Below are positions 25,152 through 53,375 of a stretch of 64,000 nt of DNA, in pieces. Each line of letters begins with the position of its first letter. Position 1 is the first letter of the stretch. The position numbers and the translations under genes are program-made. Source of the DNA: Xanthomonas sp. (GTDB lineage Bacteria > Pseudomonadota > Gammaproteobacteria > Xanthomonadales > Xanthomonadaceae); assembly GCA_018262705.1 (NCBI GenBank), contig JADFDQ010000004.1, positions 1-64,000 of the forward strand, read 5' to 3'. Below the pieces are notes generated by a model. That model saw only the letters and a program-made list of their open reading frames with translations. It was not told where the DNA came from and did not search any database.

Positions 25152-25275
25152 GGGGACAGGGGACAGGGGACAGGGGACAGGGGACAGGGGACAGGGAACA
25201 GGGAACAGGGAACAGGGAACAGGGAACAGGGAACAGGGAACAGGGAACAGGGAACAGGGAACAGGGAAGAGCATA
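25152..25275. repeat. Heptanucleotide tandem array (GGGGACA)6(GGGAACA)10
   Basis: Sixteen perfect 7-nt units run from 25152 to 25263: six GGGGACA, then ten GGGAACA, then a degenerate GGGAAGA followed by GCATA. The array fills most of the 154-nt gap between recR and the HIT gene and ends 4 nt from the HIT start codon. Such arrays vary in copy number by slippage. A related array lies at 53294. Confidence 0.97.
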
Positions 25276-28633: not shown

Positions 28634-28639
28634 GCTCCG

Positions 28640-28738
28640 TCGGCCCCTCGCGACGCTAGGTTGAAAATCCCGCCAGGGCCGGAAGGCAGCAACGGTATCG
28701 ACTGATGCGGGTGCCGAGGTCAGCCGGCGGGGCCATCG
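28640..28738 (+). ncRNA. ffs: Signal recognition particle RNA (4.5S, small bacterial type)
   Basis: This is the RNA scaffold of the SRP that binds Ffh. The diagnostic core is CCAGGGCCGGAAGGCAGCAA with its GGAA tetraloop; the returning strand contains GTGCCGAGGTCAGCCGGCGG. The ends GGCCCC (28642-28647) and GGGGCC (28729-28734) close the helix. Ends are approximate. The 3' part, from the tetraloop on, is the first copy of a 209-bp tandem repeat. Confidence 0.92.
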
Positions 28739-29204
28739 CCATTTTGCTCATCGCTGTGCGCTGCCTTCCGACCCTGGGCCGTTGCCGCGCTCGATCATCC
28801 TGATCTCGCTGGCAACCCTGCCCGGTGCATCCGTGCACCGGGCGTTCGCGGCGGCACGCGCGGATCGCGCGTAGCGCCGCCGCTCACCCGGAAGGCAGCA
28901 ACGGTATCGACTGATGCGGGTGCCGAGGTCAGCCGGCGGGGCCATCGCCATTTTGCTCATCGCTGTGCGCTGCCTTCCGACCCTGGGCCGTTGCCGCGCT
29001 CGATCATCCTGATCTCGCTGGCAACCCTGCCCGGTGCATCCGTGCACCGGGCGTTCGCGGCGGCACGCGCGGATCGCGCGTAGCGCCGCCGCTCACCCGG
29101 AAGGCAGCAACGGTATCGACTGATGCGGGTGCCGAGGTCAGCCGGCGGGGCCATCGCCATTTTGCTCATCGCTGTGCGCTGCCTTCCGACCCTGGGCCGT
29201 TGCC
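28679..29204. repeat. 209-bp tandem repeat, 2.5 copies, covering the 3' half of the SRP RNA gene
   Basis: The sequence from CCGGAAGGCAGC at 28679 recurs at 28888 and 29097, an exact 209-nt spacing; the third copy stops at 29204 after 108 nt. By eye the copies are identical. Each full unit holds the SRP RNA 3' half, a strong hairpin CCCGGTGCA/TGCACCGGG, and a second GC hairpin GCGGCGGC/GCCGCCGC. Copies 2 and 3 lack the SRP 5' half. No open frame across it looks coding. Confidence 0.95.
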
Positions 29205-44514: not shown

Positions 44515-44596
44515 GGCGGTGCTCCGGTGCGGAAGGGTCCAGCAAGACCGAAGCGACTGCAGGGCCGGAGCAGGGCTAGGCGCACGTGAGCGCCAC
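44515..44596 (-). promoter_or_regulatory. Riboswitch expression platform: SD-sequestering hairpin
   Basis: On the minus strand TGCTCCGG (44565-44572) is perfectly complementary to CCGGAGCA (44520-44527), which contains the GGAG ribosome-binding site of the metX GTG start. No T run follows, so control is likely at translation initiation. Confidence 0.7.
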
Positions 44597-44711
44597 ACCC
44601 ATCTTCCGGCGCACCGACGGCCGCCGCAGGACTTGGCACCTTGACGACTGCACGCAGTCATCCGGTTGCCCCGGCATCAAAGGGCCTGTCCCTCTGCCGG
44701 TCTTGATGGAT
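44597..44711 (-). promoter_or_regulatory. SAM-I (S-box) riboswitch aptamer
   Basis: On the minus strand the leader contains the S-box core ATCAAGA...GGCAGAGGGACAGGCCC...GATGCCGGGGCAACC...AAGGTGCCAA.TCC.GC...GGAAGATG. P1 can form from ATCCATC (44705-44711) and GATGGGT (44597-44603) with one G-U pair. It precedes the metX-metB-hom operon, the expected target. Confidence 0.92.
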
Positions 44712-44717
44712 TTGGCC

Positions 44718-53288: not shown

Positions 53289-53293
53289 GGGCC

Positions 53294-53375
53294 GGGGACC
53301 GGGGACCGGGGGCCGGGGACCGGGGATCGGGGATCGGGGATCGGGGACCGGGGACCGGGGACCGGGTAGAGCATA
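53294..53375. repeat. Heptanucleotide tandem array (GGGGAYC)10
   Basis: Ten 7-nt units run from 53294 to 53363: GGGGACC with one GGGGGCC and three GGGGATC, then GGGTAGA and GCATA. The unit length, GGG core and 3' flank match the array at 25152. Confidence 0.95.

Follow-up and report, generated by a model that had tools for sequence, protein, structure and literature searches.

A tandem array with a period of 209 nt starts inside the signal recognition particle (SRP) RNA gene in the window, i.e. the whole 64,000-nt stretch of Xanthomonas sp. DNA analyzed here. In our interpretation, a short, structured mobile element that codes for nothing, designated E, has inserted here twice in tandem, antisense to the SRP gene, and a remnant of a third insertion is also present. 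The probability of this reading is estimated at roughly 80%.

The sequence CCGGAAGGCAGC was found at positions 28679, 28888 and 29097, with a constant spacing of 209 nt. Tandem Repeats Finder described 28679-29204 as 2.5 copies of a 209-nt period with 100% matches, the top score among seven rows for the whole window. The first and second copies are 100% identical over the 209 nt compared. The repeat given in the preliminary description was thus confirmed. Copy 3 corresponds to the first 108 nt of the period, which gives the layout A-B-A-B-A. Segment A (108 nt) comprises the 3′ half of the SRP RNA gene from CCGGAAGGCAGC onwards, its 3′ flank and an inverted SRP core, GCTGCCTTCCGACCCTGG; segment B (101 nt) is hairpin-bearing. 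Since the window genome is a 24-contig draft, the copy number stated here is provisional. Two short-period repeats lie elsewhere in the window: GGGAACA repeated 16.7 times with 99% matches at 25152-25268, adjoining a recR-like ORF, and CCGGGGA repeated 10.7 times at 53292-53366.

The complete SRP RNA gene, the sole one here, occupies 28637..28733 on the plus strand (RF00169, 66.9 bits). The array had been thought to amplify the SRP 3′ half, which could give truncated RNAs competing for Ffh. The SRP RNA model, applied to each copy as had been proposed, matched 28637-28733 only, and no RF00169 row appeared at copies 2 and 3 (28888 and 29097) even at an E-value of up to 5; an array of SRP paralogues was therefore rejected. 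Taken by itself, the 3′ half in copy 2 is no more stably folded than shuffled controls (z = +0.29), which also speaks against truncated SRP RNAs. The suggestion that the hairpins could serve as repeated signals held in part: they are real and conserved, but the terminator-like site GGCGGGGCCATCGCC-ATTTTGCTCA, a consensus match only, which occurs three times and each time with an SRP 3′ end, is part of the copied target and not of E. Rfam also reported a SAM riboswitch at 44596-44712 (minus strand, 79.5 bits).

Read on the minus strand, the repeat unit consists of the structured, ORF-less element E with three hairpins, an 18-nt inverted SRP core and an SRP segment. The insertion junction, x, lies between 28678 and 28679, in domain IV of the SRP RNA gene. 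Copy 1 of E (28781..28887, minus strand) starts with 5′-GTGAGC, continues with hp3, hp2 and hp1 and folds as three hairpins; the covariance models described below matched it at 28781-28843 (R1, 79.6 bits; R2, 68.9 bits). Just 3′ of this copy is an 18-nt segment on the same strand, termed the guide (28760..28777), which runs antisense to the minus-strand target from x-12 to x+6, a single position being mismatched. The same letters form one arm of an 18-nt inverted repeat, 28673-28690 / 28760-28777 (94% complementary), i.e. the SRP core is inverted inside the repeat. Target segment A copy 1 (28679..28786, minus strand), delimited by repeat identity, is continuous with the complete SRP gene and shares its final 6 nt with the hp1 3′ arm.

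Copy 2 of E (28990..29096, minus strand; R1 and R2 matches at 28990-29052) is identical to copy 1. Its guide (28969..28986, minus strand) has the letters of the first guide shifted by 209 nt, and its target segment A (28888..28995, minus strand) contains the SRP 3′ half and flank without the SRP 5′ strand. The third, outer copy of segment A (29097..29204, minus strand) ends in GGCAAC (29199-29204), the letters of the hp1 3′ arm, which is probably what is left of a third E; the inverted copy of the SRP core at 29178..29195 (minus strand) would be the guide of this lost element. The GC-rich segment GCCGCCGCTCACC, correctly noted earlier as preceding copies 2 and 3, represents the E 5′ end (GTGAGCGGCGGC) in reverse complement. 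The segment that is conserved across other genes is thus the part between the SRP pieces, previously seen merely as GC-rich. Folding of the window unit gave -131.6 kcal/mol (z = -5.5), with a long helix of the guide with the junction.

Sequences related to this unit were found at other places. A second place for the A/B sequence is located in genome G007 just upstream of mutL (81% identity over 69 nt of a 142-nt query), and the first mutL codons are present twice there, before and after E. The exact 20-nt core of hp1 was detected in 4 of 395 genomes of the family, namely the window genome (twice), G017, G007 and G166, the copy in G166 lying between pstB and phoU. Folding showed that the hairpin of G166 pairs, with G-U pairs, only on the strand corresponding to the minus strand of the window, which indicates that the minus strand is the structured one.

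A covariance model, R1, was built from three sequences and gave matches in 11 of 60 genomes at an E-value of up to 0.1. A second model, R2, was built from 20 matches in 16 loci. R2 detected E in at least 29 of 398 genomes and at least 19 of 98 genera of the order (E-value up to 0.001), and in at least 7 of 369 genomes of a class-wide sample (E-value up to 1e-4). The latter include the window genome; the six others belong to six gammaproteobacterial families outside the order. These counts are lower bounds, since 13-14 candidates were scored per genome in both R2 searches. The window genome has a third R2 match outside the window (C19:143445), and the highest number of E copies in one genome was at least 11 (G642).

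Following a target GG, E opens with GYGAG; then come hp3, which bears a CUUG bulge, hp2, which has a GGA loop, and hp1, whose outer stem varies and which contains tandem GA mismatches and likewise a GGA loop. E is about 107-118 nt long and has no ORF. Similarity among copies inside one genome mostly extends from about -58 to +66 around the model, which suggests a size near 110-120 nt; exceptions are one pair in G642, in which it reaches +112, and some tails that add a fourth hairpin. In five loci (L149, L150, L155, L175, L204) a second class of E was seen, with GTCCGC and a fourth hairpin of variable stem after hp1; in L155 it is sequence beyond the fourth hairpin that pairs with the junction instead. 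In G649 (L193, L194, L196) E is embedded in a longer repeat block that is itself internally repetitive and may be a composite element.

The hairpins are supported by covariation. In an alignment of 85 distinct sequences, which was fitted to the model, 92.1% of cells are paired and 20 of 21 pairs have changes on both sides; none of 500 shuffles was as good, and slid versions were 28-35% paired. A MAFFT alignment independent of the model was also made from 36 longer sequences, hand-chosen from the 57 of 94 that have GGYGA at the expected distance. With these, RNAalifold recovered hp3 and hp1, with compensatory change in 24 of 28 pairs; hp2 was not recovered, and the 5′ GGYG paired there with CGCC. 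No terminal inverted repeats were visible by eye in the 36 aligned sequences, the ends of E being GGYGAG and the hp1 arm. Rfam 15 returned no family at gathering score over E in the window and six other loci, where only chance-level rows were obtained.

E is found in a variety of target genes. The family search placed it at purA, mnmG, the gyrB 3′ end (antisense) and a cobalamin adenosyltransferase gene, with one or two loci each, and at mutL, where G007 and G802, a genome of another family, have E at the same site; the remaining purA, mnmG and gyrB loci were named by reading their sequence. ARAGORN identified tRNA-Ser, tRNA-Arg, tRNA-Pro, tRNA-Ala and tRNA-Phe genes as targets, tRNA-Ser with E being present in four genomes of three families (G047, G056, G697, G795), and Rfam identified 5S rRNA (antisense, G958) and SRP (antisense). 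An Rfam asX1 (Xanthomonadaceae sRNA) match lies a few hundred bases upstream of two E-bearing mnmG genes (L132 1189-1299 and L134 1013-1123, both minus strand). Pieces resembling the hp1 end or the mnmG guide precede single-copy mnmG in L234 (G017) and L237 (G015) and are read as decayed insertions.

At many of these targets a segment of the gene is present on both sides of E. Up to 260 nt before each model match were compared with up to 500 nt after it, using 92 matches less L206 771-818 and L147 (too short), i.e. 90. A direct target copy across E with a score of at least 50 was found for 36 of the 90 testable matches (29 loci). Only 5 of 269 mismatched pairs scored as high, and purA loci were involved in four of these. 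For 25 of the 36 matches the end of the copy lies 69-102 nt beyond hp1, for 23 of them at 78-93; among the remaining 11, ten were matched to another repeat unit and one comes from a locus with Ns. The other 54 matches have no clear target copy; some may be old and others something else. Among matches lacking a near copy, no clear distant copy, as would be expected of an autonomous ORF-bearing version, was seen within flanks of up to about 1.5 kb; ORF calls are unreliable in this GC-rich DNA and were excluded from the counts.

The copy before E ends at x, after GG and before GYGAG. After E, the copy starts 20-23 nt past hp1 and is 57-60 nt long at several loci (purA L153, gyrB L141/L137, mnmG L134, L172, cobalamin adenosyltransferase L155). 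At other loci its start coincides with hp1, and in those cases a guide is present in the outer copy too; we read this guide as the probable remnant of an earlier unit. Among the 20 loci scoring at least 80, copies that begin 16-34 nt past hp1 measure 46-66 nt, and those that begin at hp1 or close to it measure 79-102 nt. A direct target copy after E means that the downstream gene is whole.

The guide begins 3 nt past hp1, and in many loci it runs antisense to the target over x+5 to x-6 or farther. With the register fixed (offset of up to 2), 20 of the 33 loci compared showed at least 8 of 11 Watson-Crick pairs; the 33 loci have a target copy ending 65-105 nt after hp1 and a score of at least 27, the 65-105 nt limit having been set after the target-copy comparison. 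A first control was weak because loci of the same target controlled each other. Omitting such pairs, guides set against targets of other classes reached at least 8 of 11 in 42 of 932 cases, L174, with a misplaced junction, forming a class of its own and L188 being counted as gyrB by a loose rule. The guide-positive loci are purA, mnmG (two sites), gyrB and SRP; at the 5S rRNA locus a 12-nt guide match was seen by eye.

A scan independent of the target copy used 90 of the 91 matches. It gave 29 loci with at least 9 of 11 pairs, 21 of them 62-95 nt downstream, and in that zone guides of other loci gave 40 of 1330 and shuffled guides 42 of 1350. When units were folded, at least 9 of the 11 expected guide pairs formed, with x inside the helix, in 15 of 33 loci. 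Guides also track target variants (TGACG/CGTCA and CGATG/CATCG in purA, CTCGA/TCGAG in gyrB). No guide match was found for tRNA-Ser, tRNA-Arg, tRNA-Phe, tRNA-Ala, the mutL site of G007 or several further loci. Across three families, the elements in tRNA-Ser genes have a different tail in common, ATTACGACCGG. Since the match fails at several targets, the guide may be a by-product of insertion and not its cause.

Tandem arrays of E were also present in other genomes. At purA in G472, a one-contig genome, four copies are exactly 202 nt apart, and G083 has three copies at 305 nt; two-copy arrays were found in G581 (200 nt), G044 (196 nt), G697 (200 nt, with a run of Ns) and G795 (172 nt). The SRP locus itself was compared among relatives, as the preliminary description had advised. 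Each of 59 of the 60 genomes searched, the window genome included, gave one SRP match; the mnmG site is likewise single in 21 of the 23 Thermomonas genomes having a match, so that both sites are mostly empty. Among 50 SRP loci compared, that of the window included, the inverted core was found at the array site in two other genomes, both of the genus of the window genome, G017 having the inverted core and the first part of B and G009 the core only. The core at this site is thus shared, but the array was absent from both, which indicates that the insertion is probably older than the array. A multi-hairpin intergenic sequence of another kind (CCCCCTT..AAGGGGGC or similar) directly follows SRP in L012, L013, L020, L024 and L028 and is present in several genomes of the genus and the family.

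These data are best explained as follows. E was characterized here by its anatomy, covariation, family, target copies, guide register in part of the loci and arrays in other genomes; that it moves we infer. The guide would form a helix with the target, with the junction in its middle, and so would position cutting or joining. Insertion would add E, an antisense copy of the junction and a second target segment ending at the same junction, so that each event would rebuild an intact target and leave the gene downstream. Each E would leave a restored target downstream of it that could be entered again, and a rebuilt target taking up another unit would give a tandem array. Growth of the array could proceed by re-insertion or, after a first insertion, by unequal crossing-over; the window units being exactly identical, their identity fits both routes equally. 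Only insertions near the end of a gene with E facing outward would leave a complete copy, which may be why the genes are spared. We suggest tentatively that E could represent a new class of bacterial mobile element: an RNA of about 110-140 nt, ribozyme-like and encoding no protein, that would be inserted by guide pairing across the site beside a fresh target copy, which would keep essential genes and RNA genes functional, and would then be re-inserted to give arrays; we hold this extension to be rather less than an even bet.

Ordinary tandem duplication could also account for the amplification: one old insertion would have been followed by slippage or unequal crossing-over, E itself playing no part in it. 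We give this an even chance. The two units are 100% identical, repeats of this size amplify easily, and G017 and G009 hold E or guide remnants at the same place with no array, all as expected of such a history. It leaves unexplained why E and a target copy with the same boundaries are found across many genes and genomes. For the last step, tandem duplication is compatible with the interpretation of the array as insertions of E.

Another explanation treats the E units as integrative elements reduced to a minimum, each bringing a replacement end for its target, as SXT does for prfC; a site-specific recombinase acting in trans would place them, often across species. We consider this possible, though on the improbable side. 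It draws on the coding loci (n = 23), in which both target copies keep the reading frame. As run, the comparison gave differences at 59 synonymous and 15 non-synonymous of 288 codons, the neutral expectation for non-synonymous being about 76%; the 15 include three codons past x in L174 and four in the decayed copy of L170, and L188, read in the wrong frame, has one non-synonymous difference in the right one. Most of the differences are thus synonymous, a pattern that would suit an origin of the copies in two functional genes: either both copies may be in use or one may recently have come from another species. In G011, the sequence 5′ of the outer mnmG copy corresponds to the native flank that mnmG has in the window genome, and of the two copies it is the inner one that is less typical (30.7 vs 34.8 of 42 mean identities); this makes transfer the somewhat likelier origin. 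In G013, however, the copies are equally typical (35.6 and 35.7 of 42).

The search for a recombinase and for carriers also weighs against integration of this kind. No recombinase gene was present between the target copies, where the inserts measure about 110-140 nt, and none was seen inside E. Exact core patterns gave no E in IMG/VR; a looser pattern gave four IMG/VR stretches, none matched by the model. Four blastn queries of phage and plasmid records gave no E either, a Burkholderia plasmid match covering 35% of the query (E-value 0.009) being taken as chance. In addition, one structured core serves many unrelated targets, and we know of no integrase for which this is the case.

Reverse transcriptase and IS110 transposase were considered as helpers and rejected, since their genes do not track E: among 28 genomes with E and 26 without, RVT_1 occurred in 4 and 6, respectively, and Transposase_20 in 8 and 8, the 28 being hand-chosen among the finds and E-negative status resting on strict-filter searches. 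RVT_1 was absent from G642 despite its many copies, and no DEDD transposase gene was detected within E. GGA loops are the motif bound by RsmA/CsrA, and a role of E as an RsmA/CsrA sponge was set aside as a lead because E occurs in both orientations relative to its targets.

The guide also bears on a possible intron-like ribozyme, in which a unit extending from junction to junction would be cut from RNA at two guide-aligned sites while both copies stay coding and either start remains usable. The guide pairs with both sides of x, the fold puts x in a helix next to hp1, and both copies are in frame. Furthermore, the GGYG-CGCC pairing has U-G in 25 and C-G in 10 of 36 sequences, which suggests that it forms in an RNA strand. 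Against it, the SRP, gyrB and 5S insertions are antisense to the gene, and no Rfam intron family was matched in the loci searched; to our knowledge there is no case of a copied 5′ exon inside an intron. We regard such a ribozyme as unlikely.

Two further explanations are much weaker. E as a cis-regulatory leader, a 5′ UTR switch whose guide masks the start region of the downstream gene, would suit the purA, mnmG and mutL loci, where E directly precedes the start codon and is oriented like the gene, but it is very improbable given that E is antisense to SRP, gyrB and 5S rRNA and is also found in tRNA genes. An assembly error in the window genome, which exact repeats in a draft might favor, is hardly credible, as related arrays exist in other assemblies, one of them single-contig, and remnants occupy the same site in G017 and G009.

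E does not fit any known class of mobile element that we could name. MITEs and other short non-autonomous insertion elements are short, dispersed and structured, have no ORF, carry terminal inverted repeats and produce target duplications of 2-15 nt. E resembles them in being short, ORF-less, dispersed, structured and presumably moved in trans. It differs in that no terminal inverted repeats were seen in the 36 aligned sequences, in its target copy of about 46-102 nt as against 2-15 and in having a guide in part of the loci, so that the features that define MITEs and insertion sequences (terminal inverted repeats, a 2-15 bp target duplication) were not found in it. The target copy is far longer than that of any transposase we know of. 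In E. coli tyrT, 178-bp repeats contain tRNA 3′ ends (rtT); like the window array, this is a tandem repeat carrying part of an RNA gene, whereas E is the same element in many unrelated targets. Group II introns start with GUGYG, which G(U/C)GAG loosely resembles, and in group I and group II introns, as in E, a guide is aligned with both sides of the junction. Unlike these introns, E is about 110 nt long, matched no Rfam intron in the loci searched and is not associated with a reverse transcriptase.

REP/BIME repeats are described as short hairpin repeats with RAYT transposases and, like E, lie outside genes and form composite arrays (PMC2817692). E differs in that it measures about 110-140 nt, has covarying hairpins, occurs in few copies (at least 11 in the richest genome) and comes with copies of target genes. 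IS110 and IS1111 use a structured bridge RNA or seekRNA in which a target-specific segment is reported to set the insertion site (PMC11208160, PMC11187229); E shares the structure and the target-specific segment, but has no transposase inside, no association with Transposase_20, a one-strand guide across the junction and a long target copy. Integrative elements in tRNA genes leave one partial and one complete target copy (PMC9897764). Partial and complete copies likewise flank E, but the insert has about 110-140 nt and not kilobases, and it encodes nothing. Within the search terms used, nothing recognized as E was found in the open PubMed Central literature.

Overall, E offers a simple reason for the tandem arrays and partial gene copies that lie beside conserved RNA genes. 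If the guide does direct insertion, E would represent an insertion system guided by RNA or DNA whose active part is very small.
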